Source: Lentisphaerae bacterium WC36
GTDB taxonomy: Bacteria; Verrucomicrobiota; Lentisphaeria; Victivallales; SZUA-371
Direction: 5' to 3'
Assembly: GCA_020683205.1 (NCBI GenBank)
Contig: CP085689.1
Location: 2,660,230 to 2,724,229 of the forward strand
Length of the DNA: 64,000 nucleotides
The notes beneath the pieces are model-generated. The model saw nothing but the letters and a program-made list of their open reading frames with translations. It made no database searches and was not told the origin of the DNA. Positions 14,703-21,898 of this stretch are shown here, piece after piece; positions within the stretch are counted from its first letter, which is position 1; each line of letters opens with the position of its first letter. The position numbers were made by a program, and so were the translations under genes.

Positions 14703-16718
14703 TTATTTTTTCCTAAAATTATTTTTTACAAGTTGATACGGTGAAAAATTTTTCATTCTTACTGCTGATGTTAATATTTTCAAAGTTTCACCAAGTTTGT
14801 GCTTATCTTTGATTTTTAATTCCAAATTTCGTTCTAAATTTTTTAACGAAATTAATGCTGCCGAATTATCATTTAATCGCACATTATATATATAAAATTC
14901 AAGTAACACTGGCATCACTTCAGCAGGGAAATTAGCAATTTCCCTTTTAACATAAATTAAAGCTAACTCATCACGATTTTCTTCTAGCTTGACAACGCAC
15001 ATGAATAAATTATTGTGACTATAATTTTCAACTCCACAATCTCTTAAATAACCATAATATTTTTCTGTTAGCGACAAATTACTAAGATTAAAAAAAGCAT
15101 TATACATAGCATCAAAAGCCACCTGTGCTCTAGGGTATTTTTTTAAAGACTGCGCAAAAAGACTATCTGCTCCTTGATAATTATTTAAAGCTCTGCGACA
15201 ACGGCCTTTCCTGCCAATATAGGTTGCCATTGAAAACTGACATATTTCAAATAATAAAATTACTGTTAAAAAAATTGTCACAAAACTCTTCAACCCATTT
15301 CTATGTTTATCGGTACAAACAGTTTTTTGAAATGGAAAGACTTCATTGGCAAGAATCCCAATTAGTATTAAAAATACAATATTTGTTGGCCATTCAAAAA
15401 GTACTAAATCAACCATTCCATGTACCAGTAACATTAAAGAACTAATCGTCACAGCTTTAATAAACCAACTTTTCTGCGAAAAATTTTTAAAAATATTACT
15501 ATAAATTTTAAATAACAACACTAAAAGCAAAGACGCTACCACAACTCCATAACTTAAAAACAGATACAAAAGTTGACTATGTGGATGGTTATTACGGTCA
15601 CTAGCTAAATTTGTTAAATAATAATCCAAGCTATTAAAAGAAGCAAAAGCCGATTCAAAAGCTCCCTCGCCAGCACCGTTAGCAACTCCAAAAAAATAAT
15701 TTATTTTGCTGTTGACCAAAAGTTCAACGCTACCACTCCACAAAAACCTTCTAATATCATTACTGATTAACTTTATATCATAATTATAACTTATAATTGC
15801 AACTGCAACCAAGATAAATCCTAACCCAAAAACTGATAAAACAATCACACTATTGATGTACTTATCTGAAATCCTATTCCAAGATAAAATATTTTTCTCA
15901 ACTTTCAAAAATTTATCATCTTGCATTTTTTCCTTTGACAACGATAATAATTTTTGAAAGAATAAATGTGAAACACGCTCCCCATACTGCCCAACAATAA
16001 AAATGATTGAACAAATAAGCAAAGCTAACCTTGCACCTTTTGAATCAGCACTATATTCAAGCCAGCCCGTCATCAATATCACAAAACCAACTAAAATAAT
16101 AGTTATTTTCTTTTCCCTTAATTTATATGGAATGTATTCTACTATCCCCCATACAATTATAGGAAAAAATGCTACGGCTAAAATAGCCTGCCAGTTCGTA
16201 TTCCCAGGCAATCCAAATGGCAAGCGCTTTGGAGCAGTTAATTTCATTGAGAAAACAATCAAGAAATTACAGCTAAATAAAAATACAATAAAGTAAAAAA
16301 TAATTTTTTTTATGTCAACAGTCGCAGTACAAGTTCTCACAAAATAAGGGATAACAATGATACTCGTGCACAACATAAAATTAGCGATTTTAATTTCAAA
16401 GATACCGCTACCACGCCAAAAGATATTTATAAATGAAACAAATGAAACAAATAAAGAGCAGACTAAAAAAAACTTATTTTTCATTAAATCCTTTTTTAAA
16501 CTTTCAAAATCAAGTAAATCAAAAAGAAAAATAGAGCAAAAACAACTAATAAAGGAGATATTAAAAACTGACCAATAAGCATAATGACTTACAATTATTC
16601 CAAAAATTTTAATATAAACTAGAGGATAAAACATTAATGAAAAAAAGAGCAAAAACAATAAATAAGCAAATGTTCTTTTTATAAAAAATTCCGATGGCTT
16701 TTCAAGCTCTTGAAGCAT
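14703..16718 (-). CDS. O-antigen-ligase-like polytopic membrane protein with C-terminal helical repeat domain
   Basis: A 671-residue inner-membrane protein. About 12 hydrophobic helices cover residues 15-480. The Wzy_C/WaaL signature is visible: EYSADSKGARLALLICSII (the S-x-S-x-G family helix) and the large periplasmic loop ending DRNNHPHSQLLYLFLSYGVV, where the conserved His of ligases lies. Residues about 490-671 are TPR-like (RRALNNYQGADSLFAQSLKKYPR). Such proteins join polymer to lipid A core or glycosylate proteins. Lying beside flagellin genes it might instead be a glycosylation ligase, but that is only context. It has no tandem glycosyltransferase neighbours here. Confidence 0.8.
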   Translation of the reverse strand: MLQELEKPSEFFIKRTFAYLLFLLFFSLMFYPLVYIKIFGIIVSHYAYWSVFNISFISCFCSIFLFDLLDFESLKKDLMKNKFFLVCSLFVSFVSFINIFWRGSGIFEIKIANFMLCTSIIVIPYFVRTCTATVDIKKIIFYFIVFLFSCNFLIVFSMKLTAPKRLPFGLPGNTNWQAILAVAFFPIIVWGIVEYIPYKLREKKITIILVGFVILMTGWLEYSADSKGARLALLICSIIFIVGQYGERVSHLFFQKLLSLSKEKMQDDKFLKVEKNILSWNRISDKYINSVIVLSVFGLGFILVAVAIISYNYDIKLISNDIRRFLWSGSVELLVNSKINYFFGVANGAGEGAFESAFASFNSLDYYLTNLASDRNNHPHSQLLYLFLSYGVVVASLLLVLLFKIYSNIFKNFSQKSWFIKAVTISSLMLLVHGMVDLVLFEWPTNIVFLILIGILANEVFPFQKTVCTDKHRNGLKSFVTIFLTVILLFEICQFSMATYIGRKGRCRRALNNYQGADSLFAQSLKKYPRAQVAFDAMYNAFFNLSNLSLTEKYYGYLRDCGVENYSHNNLFMCVVKLEENRDELALIYVKREIANFPAEVMPVLLEFYIYNVRLNDNSAALISLKNLERNLELKIKDKHKLGETLKILTSAVRMKNFSPYQLVKNNFRKK

Positions 16719-16821
16719 AAACAGTTATTCTCCTCATACAGTTCAGTCTTTTTATGGATTTAGTACAACTTAAACTAACAATCATTTAGTCTAATTACAA
16801 GAAGAAAAGATATTTTCTCAA

Positions 16822-16858
16822 AAAAATAATGCCTCCAAACTTTATGTTTAAAGGCATT
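16822..16858 (-). terminator. Terminator of flagellin copy 1
   Basis: On minus, AATGCCT (complement of 16852-16858) pairs with AGGCATT (complement of 16828-16834), with an inner AAAC/GTTT pairing, followed by a T run to 16821. Identical units follow the other two flagellin genes. Confidence 0.88.
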
Positions 16859-16897
16859 ACCATTTAAATCAAACTTAATGTCTAATTATTAACTTCC

Positions 16898-17734
16898 TTA
16901 GAAGTTTAATAATTGTTGTACACCTTGGCTTAATTTATTAGCTTGTGCTAACATTGCATTTGCAGTGTTAGTTAACACTTGATATTTGCTAAAGTTTGTT
17001 GTTTCGCGAGCCATATCAACGTCACGAACTTTACTTTCAGCAGAAGTTAAGTTGTCTTCATAAGCTAACAAACCATCACGCGTTTGTGATAAACGGTTTT
17101 GTTGTGCAGCCATTTGAGCACGTTCGTTAGAAACGTAGTTAATAGCTGTGTCTAAATGAGCGATAGCACTTGAACTTGTAACAGAGAAACTAGTATTGCT
17201 TGTTAAGCTACCAATCGTCATACCACCAGTTGAAGTTTCAGCCGTTGCTTTTAGATTTGCTAGTTCTACATCTACAGCTTGACTATCTTTTGATCCAATT
17301 TGAATATTCTTGCTTGTAGCATCAAATAAGTTCTCGCCGTTGAACTGAGCAGCAGCAGTATCACCATCAGTAATACGTTTGATCTCTTCTTGCATTGCTT
17401 TAAATTCAGCGTTGATATTAGTTTTATCAGCGTCTGAAGTTACACCTTTAGCCTCAATTGCTAATGATTTCATGCGGTTAAGCATATCACTAATTTTTTG
17501 AGCCCATGCATCAGCAGTTTGCATCATAGAGATAGCATTTTCAGTGTTGTTACGAGCCATTGCAGTACCTTTAATATCAGATCTCATGTTTTCACTGATA
17601 CCAACTCCAGCTGGGTCATCTGTATTTTTGATTACACCAGTTGAAAGTCTGCTCATAGACTCTTGTAGTTTAGTTGTGTTTGCAGAGTAACTACTCCAAA
17701 CATTGAATGCCGCAGTGTTGTTGTTAATTCTCAT
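16898..17734 (-). CDS. fliC: Flagellin, copy 1
   Basis: Structural subunit of the flagellar filament. The 278 residues contain only the conserved D0/D1 helices: N-terminal MRINNNTAAFNVWSSYSAN and RLSTGVIKNTDDPAGVGISE, C-terminal SKVRDVDMARETTNFSKYQV and ANKLSQGVQQLLNF. Large D2/D3 outer domains are absent (E. coli FliC is about 500 residues). The central variable stretch (about 155-195) matches copy 3, while the flanks match copy 2, so the gene is a mosaic. GGAG lies 9-10 bases before the ATG. Each copy has its own promoter and terminator, so they are three separate transcripts. Export is by the flagellar type III system. Confidence 0.95.
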   Translation of the reverse strand: MRINNNTAAFNVWSSYSANTTKLQESMSRLSTGVIKNTDDPAGVGISENMRSDIKGTAMARNNTENAISMMQTADAWAQKISDMLNRMKSLAIEAKGVTSDADKTNINAEFKAMQEEIKRITDGDTAAAQFNGENLFDATSKNIQIGSKDSQAVDVELANLKATAETSTGGMTIGSLTSNTSFSVTSSSAIAHLDTAINYVSNERAQMAAQQNRLSQTRDGLLAYEDNLTSAESKVRDVDMARETTNFSKYQVLTNTANAMLAQANKLSQGVQQLLNF

Positions 17735-17808
17735 TTTTTAAACTCTCCATAGTTTAAGATTTGAAGGATAATGAACCAGTCATCACCCACATCTAAGTTT
17801 GTTGCATT

Positions 17809-17860
17809 AACTGAACCACCTTGTTCAGTTATAACTACAAAAAACATCCTTGTTTTTTGT
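17809..17860 (-). promoter_or_regulatory. Flagellin 1 leader: two tandem hairpins, first with CsrA-type loop
   Basis: On minus, ACAAAAAAC-AAGGAT-GTTTTTTGT (17860-17837) forms a perfect 9-bp stem whose loop and closing pairs read ACAAGGATGT, equal to the core of the CsrA SELEX consensus. Next, AACTGAAC-AAGGTG-GTTCAGTT (17830-17809) forms a perfect 8-bp stem. They lie about 75-125 bases before the ATG. CsrA binding is inference. Confidence 0.7.
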
Positions 17861-17899
17861 AAAACAAAACTGCCGAATGCAGTATTGCTCTATACATTA

Positions 17900-17926
17900 T
17901 TAACGACATAAAATCAAAATGATTTA
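17900..17926 (-). promoter_or_regulatory. Sigma-28-like flagellar promoter of flagellin 1
   Basis: On minus, TAAA (17926-17923), 15 bases, then GTCGTTAA (17907-17900). Sigma-28 consensus is TAAA-N15-GCCGATAA; six of eight -10 bases match. The same arrangement recurs at the two other copies. Confidence 0.72.
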
Positions 17927-17959
17927 GTCTGATTACAAGAAGAAAAGATATTTTCTCAA

Positions 17960-17996
17960 AAAAATAATGCCTCCAAACTTTATGTTTAAAGGCATT
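17960..17996 (-). terminator. Terminator of flagellin copy 2
   Basis: Same hairpin as for copy 1: AATGCCT at 17966-17972 pairs with AGGCATT at 17990-17996, with a T run on the minus strand. It prevents read-through into copy 1. Confidence 0.88.
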
Positions 17997-18035
17997 ACCA
18001 TTTAAATCAAACTTAATGTCTAATTATTAACTTCC

Positions 18036-18878
18036 TTAGAAGTTTAATAATTGTTGTACACCTTGACTTAATTTATTAGCTTGTGCTAACATTGCATTTG
18101 CAGTGTTAGTTAACACTTGATATTTGCTAAAGTTTGTTGTTTCGCGAGCCATATCAACGTCACGAACTTTGCTTTCAGCAGAAGTTAAGTTGTCTTCATA
18201 AGCTAACAAACCGTCACGAGTTTGTGATAAACGGTTTTGTTGTGCAGCCATTTGAGCACGTTCGTTAGAAACGTAGTTAATAGCTGTGTCTAAATGAGCG
18301 ATAGCACTTGAACTTGTAACAGAGAATTCATCATTATCTGTTAAAGTAGAAATAGTCATTGCGCCAACAACAGTAGAAATTGCCGCAGTACTTTGTAAGT
18401 CTGCTAAAACTACATCTACAGCTTGACCATCTTTTGCACCAATTTGAATATTCTTGCTTGTAGCATCAAATAAGTTCTCGCCGTTGAACTGAGCAGCAGC
18501 AGTATCACCATCAGTAATACGTTTAATCTCTTCTTGCATTGCTTTAAATTCAGCGTTGATATTAGTTTTATCAGCGTCTGAAGTTACACCTTTAGCCTCA
18601 ATAGCTAATGATTTCATGCGGTTAAGCATATCACTAATTTTTTGAGCCCATGCATCAGCAGTTTGCATCATAGAGATAGCATTTTCAGTGTTGTTACGAG
18701 CCATTGCAGTACCTTTAATATCAGATCTCATGTTTTCACTGATACCAACTCCAGCTGGGTCATCTGTATTTTTGATTACACCAGTTGAAAGTCTGCTCAT
18801 AGACTCTTGTAGTTTAGTTGTGTTTGCAGAGTAACTACTCCAAACATTGAATGCCGCAGTATTGTTGTTAATTCTCAT
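18036..18878 (-). CDS. fliC: Flagellin, copy 2
   Basis: Filament subunit of 280 residues, identical to copy 1 over almost the entire N- and C-terminal helices. It differs in the central segment (about residues 152-195), where copy 2 reads VVLADLQSTAAISTVVGAMT, two residues longer than the other copies. This segment would lie at the tip of the D1 domain, the exposed surface of the filament. Start context, leader and terminator are the same as for copy 1. The short length without D2/D3 suggests a thin, smooth filament. Different surface segments under separate control may allow filament variation. Confidence 0.95.
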   Translation of the reverse strand: MRINNNTAAFNVWSSYSANTTKLQESMSRLSTGVIKNTDDPAGVGISENMRSDIKGTAMARNNTENAISMMQTADAWAQKISDMLNRMKSLAIEAKGVTSDADKTNINAEFKAMQEEIKRITDGDTAAAQFNGENLFDATSKNIQIGAKDGQAVDVVLADLQSTAAISTVVGAMTISTLTDNDEFSVTSSSAIAHLDTAINYVSNERAQMAAQQNRLSQTRDGLLAYEDNLTSAESKVRDVDMARETTNFSKYQVLTNTANAMLAQANKLSQGVQQLLNF

Positions 18879-18952
18879 TTTTTAAACTCTCCATAGTTTA
18901 AGATTTGAAGGATAATGAACCAGTCATCACCCACATCTAAGTTTGTTGCATT

Positions 18953-19004
18953 AACTGAACCACCTTGTTCAGTTATAACTACAAAAAACATCCTTGTTTT
19001 TTGT
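18953..19004 (-). promoter_or_regulatory. Flagellin 2 leader: two tandem hairpins
   Basis: Same two hairpins as copy 1: the AAGGAT-loop stem at 18981-19004 and the AAGGTG-loop stem at 18953-18974. The leader is practically identical in sequence to copy 1, so it adds no independent covariation. Confidence 0.7.
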
Positions 19005-19044
19005 AAAACAAAACTGCCGAATGCAGTATTATTTCAACATGGTA

Positions 19045-19071
19045 TTTACGACATAAAATCATAATAATTTA
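19045..19071 (-). promoter_or_regulatory. Sigma-28-like flagellar promoter of flagellin 2
   Basis: On minus, TAAA (19071-19068), 15 bases, GTCGTAAA (19052-19045). Confidence 0.7.
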
Positions 19072-19102
19072 GTCTGATTACAAGAAGAAAAGATATTTTC
19101 TC

Positions 19103-19141
19103 AAAAAAATAATGCCTCCAAACTTTATGTTTAAAGGCATT
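19103..19141 (-). terminator. Terminator of flagellin copy 3
   Basis: AATGCCT (19111-19117) pairs with AGGCATT (19135-19141), T run on minus; third copy of the unit. Confidence 0.88.
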
Positions 19142-19180
19142 ACCATTTAAATCAAACTTAATGTCTAATTATTAACTTCC

Positions 19181-20017
19181 TTAGAAGTTTAATAATTGTT
19201 GTACACCTTGGCTTAATTTATTAGCTTGTGCTAACATTGCATTTGCAGTGTTAGTTAACACTTGATATTTGCTAAAGTTTGTTGTTTCGCGAGCCATATC
19301 AACGTCACGAACTTTACTTTCAGCAGAAGTTAAGTTGTCTTCATAAGCTAACAAACCATCACGCGTTTGTGATAAACGGTTTTGTTGCGCAGCCATTTGA
19401 GCACGTTCGTTAGAAACGTAGTTAATAGCTGTGTCTAAATGAGCGATAGCACTCGCACTTGTAACAGAGAAACTAGTATTGCTTGTTAAGCTACCAATCG
19501 TCATACCACCAGTTGAAGTTTCAGCTGTTGCTTTTAGATTTGCTAGTTTCACATCTACTGCTTGACTATCTTTTGACCCAACTTGAATATTTTTCGCTGT
19601 TGCATCAAATAAATTCTCACCGTTAAACTGAGCTGCAGCAGTATCACCATCAGTAATACGTCTAATCTCTTCTTGCATTGCTTTAAACTCAGCGTTGATA
19701 TTAGTTTTATCAGCATCTGAAGTTATGCCTTTAGATTCAATAGCTAGTGATTTCATGCGGTTAAGCATATCACTAATTTTTTGAGCCCATGCATCAGCAG
19801 TTTGCATCATAGAGATAGCATTTTCAGTATTATTACGAGCCATTGCAGTACCTTTAATATCAGATCTCATGTTTTCACTGATACCAACTCCAGCTGGGTC
19901 ATCTGTATTTTTGATTACACCAGTTGAAAGTCTGCTCATAGACTCTTGTAATTTAGTTGTATTTGCCGAATAGCTACTCCAAACGTTAAATGCCGCAGTG
20001 TTGTTATTAATTCTCAT
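19181..20017 (-). CDS. fliC: Flagellin, copy 3
   Basis: Filament subunit of 278 residues with the same conserved ends as copies 1 and 2, but more silent and several amino-acid changes in the first 150 residues (IESKGITSD, EEIRRI, TAKNIQVGSKD). Its central segment (KLANLKATAETSTGGMT) is nearly that of copy 1. It is the first gene of the array in transcription order and has the most diverged leader, which makes it the best candidate for the ancestral unit. GGAG precedes the ATG. It is divergent from rpsP with about 440 bases between. Confidence 0.95.
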   Translation of the reverse strand: MRINNNTAAFNVWSSYSANTTKLQESMSRLSTGVIKNTDDPAGVGISENMRSDIKGTAMARNNTENAISMMQTADAWAQKISDMLNRMKSLAIESKGITSDADKTNINAEFKAMQEEIRRITDGDTAAAQFNGENLFDATAKNIQVGSKDSQAVDVKLANLKATAETSTGGMTIGSLTSNTSFSVTSASAIAHLDTAINYVSNERAQMAAQQNRLSQTRDGLLAYEDNLTSAESKVRDVDMARETTNFSKYQVLTNTANAMLAQANKLSQGVQQLLNF

Positions 20018-20089
20018 TTTAAACTCTCCATAGTTTAATAGTGAAGGACAATGAATAAGTCATCACCCAAATTTAAGTTTGTTATCGTA

Positions 20090-20139
20090 AATAAGTACAC
20101 CTATACTATTCACAATTATGAAGAACATCCTTGTTCTTC
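20090..20139 (-). promoter_or_regulatory. Flagellin 3 leader: same two hairpins with different stems
   Basis: On minus, GAAGAAC-AAGGAT-GTTCTTC (20139-20120) keeps the loop AAGGAT of the other copies while the outer stem pairs differ compensatorily. A second stem, AATA-GTA closing loop TAGGTG with TAC-(T)-TATT (20110-20090), replaces the AACTGAAC stem. Conserved loops on changed stems argue for selection on RNA structure. Confidence 0.7.
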
Positions 20140-20186
20140 TGACGGAAAGAACTCAACAACCTCTATGTTATTTTGTTCTGTTTATT

Positions 20187-20213
20187 TTTACGTCATAGTT
20201 ATGAAAGAATTTA
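20187..20213 (-). promoter_or_regulatory. Sigma-28-like flagellar promoter of flagellin 3
   Basis: On minus, TAAA (20213-20210), 15 bases, GACGTAAA (20194-20187). The surrounding sequence differs from copies 1 and 2, yet both boxes and the spacing are kept. Confidence 0.7.
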
Positions 20214-20262
20214 GTATTTTTTATATTTTTTTATAAATTTTTCATTTTTTTACTAAAAATAT

Positions 20263-20290
20263 TTGTAGTTCGTTGTGTTTGTGGTATATT
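20263..20290 (+). promoter_or_regulatory. Putative promoter of the rpsP operon
   Basis: TTGTAG (20263-20268), 16 bases, TATATT (20285-20290), about 165 bases before the rpsP ATG. A second AT-rich candidate (TATATAATA near 20361) lies closer. Weak -35 match. Confidence 0.4.
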
Positions 20291-20455
20291 TGCGTTCATT
20301 TATTAATTTTACAAAAATAAGAATTTTACAGTCACGTCAGATCATAATTTGTCGTACGAGTATATAATAATGTGAAAAAAGTTGTTCTTATTATATATTC
20401 AACAAACTAAAAACCACGAAAAATTGTGAATTATTAAAATTTAGAGGAAAACTAA

Positions 20456-20806
20456 ATGGCAGTTAAATTAAGACTAAAAAGAACTGGTTCAAAAAATGCA
20501 CCATGTTATCGTATTATCGCAGCAGACATGAGAGCTGCTCGTGATGGTAAAGCAATTGATACATTAGGATTTTATGATCCAATTCGTAAACAAGAAAAAA
20601 TTGATCTAGAAAAAGTTACATACTGGAAAGGTTGCGGAGCATTAGTTTCACCAACAGTTGCATCTATTGCAAAAAGAGCTGAAAACGGTGTTAGCTTAGC
20701 AGAGCTAAAAGCTAGTAAGACTAAAAAACCATCAAAGAAAGCTATTGCTAAAATGGAAGCTGAAAAAGCAGCTGCAGCTGAAGCAGCGGCTGAAACAGCA
20801 GAATAA
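20456..20806 (+). CDS. rpsP: 30S ribosomal protein S16
   Basis: Small-subunit protein that binds 16S rRNA early in assembly. The 116-residue protein begins MAVKLRLKRTGSKNAPCYRI, the family signature, and has IDTLGFYDP. Canonical S16 is about 80-90 residues; here a Lys/Ala-rich tail (residues about 85-116) is added. GAGG precedes the ATG. It leads an operon with khpA, trmD, rplS and rnhB. The usual order is rpsP-(khpA)-rimM-trmD-rplS; rimM is missing here. Confidence 0.97.
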   Translation: MAVKLRLKRTGSKNAPCYRIIAADMRAARDGKAIDTLGFYDPIRKQEKIDLEKVTYWKGCGALVSPTVASIAKRAENGVSLAELKASKTKKPSKKAIAKMEAEKAAAAEAAAETAE

Positions 20807-20844
20807 TAACTTTGAGCTAGACTAAACCACTAGAGGTAACGAAA

Positions 20845-21159
20845 GTGATAAAGAAATTATTACGATTTTTTACTGGTTCAACAGAAGAGAATCGTGTAGC
20901 AGATAGCCACGTAGACGGATTACACGAGCTTGAGAGTTTTGTAGACTATGTTGTAAAATCATTAGTTGATTCTCCTGATAGTGTTCGTATTTGTTCTGTA
21001 GAAGGCAACAATGAAAATGTTATTCAAATCCACTGCAAAAAAGAGGATATTGGTAAAATTGTTGGAAAAAAAGGCAAAACAATTATGGCTATTAGATCTT
21101 TGGTTAGCGGAGCAGCAGGAAGATTGCAAAAAAGAGTTGCAGTTGAAGTTGTAGATTAA
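20845..21159 (+). CDS. khpA: KH-domain RNA-binding protein KhpA (YlqC family)
   Basis: Small cytoplasmic RNA-binding protein, usually partner of KhpB and often encoded next to rpsP. The 104-residue protein has a KH domain with the GxxG loop in IGKIVGKKGKTIMAIRSLV (residues about 69-87). It has an N-terminal extension of about 28 residues compared with typical 75-80-residue KhpA, unless the start is internal; no better in-frame ATG with a ribosome site is seen. Start is GTG with GAGG about 10 bases upstream. It lies 38 bases after rpsP. Confidence 0.88.
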   Translation: MIKKLLRFFTGSTEENRVADSHVDGLHELESFVDYVVKSLVDSPDSVRICSVEGNNENVIQIHCKKEDIGKIVGKKGKTIMAIRSLVSGAAGRLQKRVAVEVVD

Positions 21160-21211
21160 TTTTTGAAATTTTTAACAATTTGTTTAAGCGAAAAAGTGTT
21201 AAAGTAAGTTA

Positions 21212-21898
21212 ATGAAAATAGATATCTTAACATTGTTTCCAAATAGTTTTTTTGGACCATTTGCCGAAAGTATCGTCAAAAGAGCAATCGATGGCAATTT
21301 TGTTGAAATCAACGCAGTAAATCTGCGTGATTACAGCCATGATAAACGAGGAACTGTCGACGATAAACCATATGGCGGAGGTCCTGGAATGCTCCTCAAA
21401 GCAGAACCTCTAACCGAGGCAATTGAGGACATAAAAAGAGAAGATACTATTGTTATTTTAACAACACCACAAGGTGAAGTTTTCGACCAGAAAAAGGCTT
21501 TAGAATTAAGCAAGGCAAAACATTTAGTGTTTGTTTGTGGTCATTACGAAGGCGTAGATGAAAGAATTAGAGAGACTCTAATTGATTATGAACTTTCAAT
21601 CGGCGACTACGTTTTAACCAGTGGAAATTTACCAGCAATGGTAATGAGTGATGCAATTATCAGATTATTACCGGGCGTATTAGGAGATGATGAATCAAGC
21701 GTTGATGAATCATTTAGTGATAATTTATTGGAATATCCTCAATACACCAGACCAGAAGAATATCGAGGAATGAAAGTTCCAGAAGTATTATTAAGTGGTA
21801 ATCACAAGAAAATTGCAGAATGGCGCAAAGAACAATCATTAGCAAGAACTAAGTTAGTTCGACCAGAATTGTTAGAAAAAAGAAAAATTGAAAGCTAA
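21212..21898 (+). CDS. trmD: tRNA (guanine37-N1)-methyltransferase
   Basis: Makes m1G37 next to the anticodon, preventing +1 frameshifting; SPOUT (trefoil-knot) enzyme using AdoMet. The 228 residues begin [13 protein letters not shown], contain [24 protein letters not shown] and [17 protein letters not shown], all TrmD signatures that form the knot, and end with [13 protein letters not shown]. Length matches the family. The ribosome site is weak (AAGTAAG). It follows khpA by 52 bases; the usual upstream gene rimM is absent. Confidence 0.97.

Follow-up and report, generated by a model that had tools for sequence, protein, structure and literature searches.

The minus strand of the window, by which we mean the whole stretch of 64,000 nucleotides analysed here, carries three flagellin genes in tandem, each with its own leader. 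Copy 1 (16898..17734, 278 aa), copy 2 (18036..18878, 280 aa), and copy 3 (19181..20017, 278 aa) are open reading frames with a match to Pfam Flagellin_N, and copy 3 is also recognised by NCBIfam flagellin models. All leader features described below lie on the same strand. Read by eye against the sigma28 consensus, candidate sigma28-like promoters can be placed at 17899..17926 for copy 1 (TAAA ... TCGTTAA), at 19044..19071 for copy 2, and at 20187..20213 for copy 3. The leader transcripts would then start about 160 nt upstream of each flagellin gene, and leader length here is about 150-170 nt. The 3' 150 nt of the leader are identical in copies 1 and 2, which are near-identical duplicates, so the window offers only two independent leaders.

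Four hairpins, H1 to H4, can be drawn in these leaders. The original prediction held that each leader contains a hairpin with loop AAGGAT and the core of the CsrA consensus, and that its paired bases had changed together around a fixed loop; both statements stand. H1 reads UUACAAAAAAC-AAGGAU-GUUUUUUGUAG in copy 1 (17835..17862), is identical in copy 2 (18979..19006), and becomes GAAGAAC-AAGGAU-GUUCUUC in copy 3 (20120..20139). Two stem pairs that are A-U in copies 1/2 are G-C in copy 3, a compensatory double change in each case, while the loop plus its closing pairs, ACAAGGAUGU, is unchanged in all three leaders, and AAGGAU is closed by AC/GU in every copy. The CsrA core obtained by SELEX is RUACARGGAUGU with a preferred hexaloop, and its GGA was fully conserved among the ligands (PMC7652899). 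Judged as a site of this type (ACARGGAUGU, GGA in a hexaloop, AC/GU paired), H1 holds the exact ACAAGGAUGU in all copies, although its stem in copies 1/2 runs to 11 bp and the typical SELEX winner has no more than four pairs. Across the genome there are five copies of the 10-mer ACAAGGATGT, one in each of the three flagellin leaders, one in the leader of rpoN, and one inside recQ. The recQ occurrence codes for NKDV and was rejected as a CsrA site, being taken as chance.

A frame of 38 codons (MFFVVITEQGGSVNATNLDVGDDWFIILQILNYGEFKK) opens at the ATG in the H1 loop of copy 1 (~17735-17847), and the same frame is found in copy 2; its stop overlaps the flagellin start. This frame is probably non-coding. 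It is not kept in copy 3, where an early stop interrupts it, and for that reason a leader-peptide explanation was dropped.

At the other end of the leader, H4 places the Shine-Dalgarno sequence GGAGA in the loop of UUAAAC-UAUGGAGA-GUUUAA, a second CsrA-type site that spans the ribosome-binding site and is common to all three copies (17738..17757, 18882..18901, and 20019..20038 for copies 1, 2, and 3, respectively). The suggestion that GGAGA might provide a second CsrA contact had thus half seen this hairpin. Each window copy, as well as leaders of relatives, combines a GGA hairpin upstream with a second GGA on the Shine-Dalgarno sequence.

Between H1 and H4 lie two further hairpins. H2 has the loop AAGGUG in copies 1 (17809..17830) and 2 (18953..18974), with GG but without GGA, and the loop UAGGUG on a different stem in copy 3 (20084..20116). 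It had been said to behave as H1 does. This was right insofar as the hairpin is real and copies 1/2 and copy 3 share the loop core AGGUG despite unrelated stems, but wrong insofar as it was to be a CsrA site: GGA was looked for in the H2 loops of all three copies and GGU was found instead. Because the GGA that is fully conserved in SELEX ligands (PMC7652899) is absent, H2 was not counted as a CsrA site and does not read as a canonical one; copies 1/2 score 13.4 bits, versus 23.6-25.7 for H1. It might be a decayed CsrA site, serve as a structural spacer, or have another role. H3, a predicted fold, reads GGGUGAUGA-CUGGU-UCAUUAUCC in copy 1 (17766..17788), has the same sequence in copy 2 (18910..18932), and is conserved in copy 3 (20046..20068) apart from one U-A to U-G change. 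The minimum-energy fold of copy 1 shows all four hairpins; that of copy 3 shows H1, H2, and H4, with the H3 stretch paired otherwise.

Hairpins of this kind are rare in the window. The two strands of the 64 kb together hold nine ANGGAN hexaloops on stems of at least 6 bp, and six of the nine are H1 and H4 of the three leaders, so that their placement is not chance. The leaders also fold better than shuffled sequence (z = -4.0 and -3.1). A covariance model built from 25 relatives only, with the window leaders left out (R2), ranks the three leaders first to third in the window, the best being H1 of copy 3 at 18.6 bits, with 16.0 bits each for copies 1 and 2 and 13.7 for the next match. An Rfam search of 16500-21500 returned no family match up to E = 1. 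One whole-genome model match, at 2997288, lies antisense within a coding sequence and was set aside as chance.

The genome (3.66 Mb, one contig) was searched for csrA and fliW, and contains one of the former and two of the latter. The csrA product matches PF02599 (E 1.5e-21) and scores above the cut-off of TIGR00202, and both fliW products match PF02623 above cut-off. One fliW stands directly before csrA in an operon of the order rpoN-fliW-csrA, which is kept in several relatives; the second adjoins flgB-flgC-fliE-like genes, identified by reading the sequences. CsrA has 82 aa and possesses R44, I51, N55, and a C-terminal extension, and R44 is invariant among the aligned CsrA proteins of relatives. 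In published work, R44 is tied to RNA binding, and V/I51 and N55 to FliW binding (PMC7829508). Among solved structures, the best match in sequence is 5dmb, a Geobacillus CsrA with a C-terminal extension, and it covers residues 2-75.

Some possible CsrA sites were encountered around these genes. The leader of rpoN holds UUACAAGGAUGUAA, an exact SELEX-type site on a 4-bp stem, some 20-30 nt ahead of the rpoN start (L015:5151-5172, that is, C1:3153150-3153171 of the same genome), which suggests CsrA feedback on its own rpoN-fliW-csrA operon. The site was not seen in the rpoN leaders read from five relatives, and may be a chance occurrence in this genome. In three relatives (L078:7924-7960, and the csrA starts of G005 and G020, L079 and L080), the first codons of csrA, CTGACAAGGAAGTC (LTRKS), resemble the flagellin-leader hairpin and make an autoregulatory site within the coding sequence possible; no such hairpin is present at the csrA start of the genome of the window.

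Metagenome-assembled genomes of Lentisphaerae/Victivallales make up most of the named relatives recovered by sequence comparison, in agreement with the assignment to a Lentisphaerota-like organism. Across the order (137 genomes), flagellin was found in nine, csrA in eight, and fliW in eight, the last two in the same eight genomes. Across the class (197 genomes), flagellin occurs in 17, csrA in 16 (15 shared with flagellin), and fliW in 14. Expressed as an association, csrA is present in 15/17 genomes with flagellin versus 1/180 without (p = 2e-19), and fliW in 14/17 versus 0/180 (p = 7e-19; both by Fisher's test over the 197 genomes, with kinship ignored). G019, a genome 78% complete, has flagellin, and neither csrA, fliW, nor the upstream hairpin was found in it.

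The hairpin itself is widespread in the class. An ANGGAN hexaloop on at least 4 bp was found at -150..-22 in 28 of 45 flagellin leaders, versus 0.62 expected from shuffles, and with at least 6 bp in 22 of 45, versus 0.10 expected; about a third of the relatives' flagellin genes have no strict upstream hairpin. A typical form in the class is CUGAC-AAGGAC-GUCAG, and outside it GCAACAC-AAGGAC-GUGUUGC and GCGGC-ACGGAU-GCCGC are typical; the second loop base varies among relatives (AAGGA, AGGGA, ATGGA, ACGGA). As had been anticipated for relatives, the stem pairs change together and the loop remains constant. In 46 distinct hairpins, 93% of cells at the six inner pairs are standard-paired, double changes occur at all six, and the covariation score is 0.94; shuffling brings the score down to 0.22, and sliding the partners leaves it at 0.22 or below. 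Because only hairpins with at least 4 bp had been admitted to this set, pairing is inflated in it, and the safer argument comes from ANGGA sites picked regardless of pairing. At -60..-22 in the class, 25 of 36 such sites sit in stems, versus 5 of 124 over 13 control pentamers; in other classes of the phylum, 39 leaders gave 19 of 25 versus 1 of 78. Both outcomes on which the original prediction was to fall, a genome lacking csrA and a patternless loss of stems and loops, thus failed to appear.

The second site is conserved as well: the Shine-Dalgarno GGA lies in an ANGGAN loop on a short stem (at least 3 bp) in 27/37 flagellin leaders versus 6/34 control genes (p = 4e-6, Fisher's test, kinship ignored). 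In the leader of a typical relative, the first GGA hairpin is strong and the second, 20-47 nt further downstream on the Shine-Dalgarno sequence, is weak.

Several flagellin genes add detail to this picture. The fourth flagellin of the genome, located outside the window, is without a convincing upstream hairpin; an A-U-rich hairpin there does have an ANGGAN hexaloop, is counted among the 28 leaders above, and is probably spurious. In three relatives, hairpin-less flagellins lie directly downstream of a fliW paralogue (G144:C56:64000-64433, G143:C17:10509-10948, and G145:C195:87374-87811), as if linkage to fliW had replaced CsrA control. Finally, the promoters of the order's flagellin leaders, read by eye, are of two kinds, some sigma54-like (TGGCAC-N5-TTGC; for example, L021, L036, and L042) and others sigma28-like (CGATAA; for example, L023 and L029). 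Both kinds occur upstream of the CsrA-type hairpin, which suggests that early and late flagellins are under one translational switch.

We regard the three leaders, with a probability of about 90%, as translational switches of a FliW-CsrA system for flagellin homeostasis. The reading is built on the two GGA hairpins with their conservation and covariation, on the fliW-csrA operon, and on its co-inheritance with flagellin; CsrA binding, repression, and the FliW switch are proposed by analogy with B. subtilis and C. jejuni. A CsrA dimer would dock with one half on the high-affinity H1 loop ACAAGGAUGU and with its other half on the GGA at the Shine-Dalgarno sequence in H4, excluding ribosomes. Export of flagellin would leave FliW free to bind the C-terminal helix of CsrA and strip it from the RNA, allowing flagellin to be made; accumulation of flagellin in the cell would sequester FliW, and CsrA would repress again. 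H2 and H3 may act as a folded spacer that brings H1 and H4 together.

Several observations count against reading these leaders as CsrA switches. The H1 stem of copies 1/2 is long, as noted above; the fourth flagellin of the genome and about a third of the relatives' flagellin genes lack the strict upstream hairpin; and the two sites of each leader stand far apart. Their distance is 101 nt, the same in every copy, with H2 and H3 making up the extra length, and all of the 43 other leaders measured have a shorter one, 20-47 nt (median 25). We would advance only as a speculation, and probably a wrong one, that the leader has been rebuilt in this lineage, with H2 and H3 inserted to form a folded spacer, constant in length, that separates the distant sites, perhaps with a ligand of its own for the AGGUG loop, and with the three tandem leaders acting jointly as a CsrA sponge.

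Other explanations of the hairpins need to be weighed against the same evidence. Flagellin mRNAs are abundant, and the better-than-shuffled folding of the leaders would suit protein-independent stabilisers or protective 5' stems in which the loop sequence is irrelevant. Such stems would hardly be coupled to GGA loops as observed (the 25/36 and 19/25 unselected ANGGA sites, with control pentamers almost never in stems), nor covary around a fixed loop; in G019, for which no csrA was found, the upstream motif is missing, and csrA and fliW co-occur with flagellin. We therefore consider this explanation extremely unlikely. The same small credence goes to a CsrA-independent role for AAGGA as a decoy or standby Shine-Dalgarno sequence that parks ribosomes near the start. 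The loop does resemble a Shine-Dalgarno sequence and in relatives lies 20-47 nt upstream of the true one, but in this species it is ~100 nt upstream, its AC/GU closing pairs are those of the CsrA SELEX consensus, and the variation at its second base is tolerated by CsrA and would not be favoured by Shine-Dalgarno pairing.

CsrA might also bind these leaders mainly to be titrated away from other targets, with flagellin repression secondary. One genome with three leaders of two sites each would make a plausible sponge, and a precedent has been reported for C. jejuni flaA (PMC4894983). The site overlapping the Shine-Dalgarno sequence (27/37 versus 6/34) favours direct repression instead, and titration as the main function strikes us as very improbable, though the two roles are not mutually exclusive.

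As read from the sequences, this is an extension of the known FliW-CsrA mechanism to new taxa, conserved across a little-studied phylum. Judged by the open-licence literature, the claim that CsrA control of flagellin in a Lentisphaerota-like organism would be new holds for the taxa, but not for the mechanism. The earlier work that established FliW-CsrA control of flagellin was done in Firmicutes and Campylobacter. Planctomycetes and "Chlamideae" appear in a 2015 survey among the groups that may use FliW (PMC4682653), and in the open-licence literature we found no paper on FliW-CsrA flagellin control in Lentisphaerota or the rest of the phylum, nor on its RNA side. What is added is the RNA target across a phylum, together with a class in which csrA and fliW come and go with flagellin, and this supports the view that the switch is ancient and has been conserved as a component of flagellar gene sets. 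It also provides a sequence signature for locating CsrA targets in uncultured bacteria, and the 101-nt version offers a natural test of the reach of CsrA dimer bridging.

In C. jejuni flaA, two ANGGA stem-loops were established as CsrA sites by footprinting, gel shift, and mutants, and FliW antagonises CsrA (PMC4894983). The likeness is close: two stem-loops with ANGGA in the loop, the second over the ribosome-binding site (PMC4894983), compensatory changes in relatives that support the structure, and csrA and fliW in the genome. The flaA 5'UTR is 45 nt long, whereas the leader predicted here runs to ~150-170 nt and separates its sites by 101 nt, a stretch that also holds two extra hairpins. 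B. subtilis hag likewise has two CsrA sites, one overlapping the Shine-Dalgarno sequence (PMC7652899, PMC6529632), and shares with this genome the fliW-csrA gene pair and a CsrA whose C-terminal extension carries N55. It differs in spacing and leader architecture; here, in addition, three leaders stand in tandem, a fourth flagellin is without a convincing site, rpoN heads the fliW-csrA operon, and fliW has two paralogues. From E. coli come the glgC and CsrA SELEX hairpins, with a GGA hexaloop and AC/GU closing pairs, to which H1 conforms as an exact ACARGGAUGU (PMC7652899). In glgC, a high-affinity hairpin tethers CsrA, which then bridges to the Shine-Dalgarno sequence (PMC7652899); glgC is, however, a metabolic target, and E. 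coli CsrA is antagonised by sRNAs rather than by FliW.
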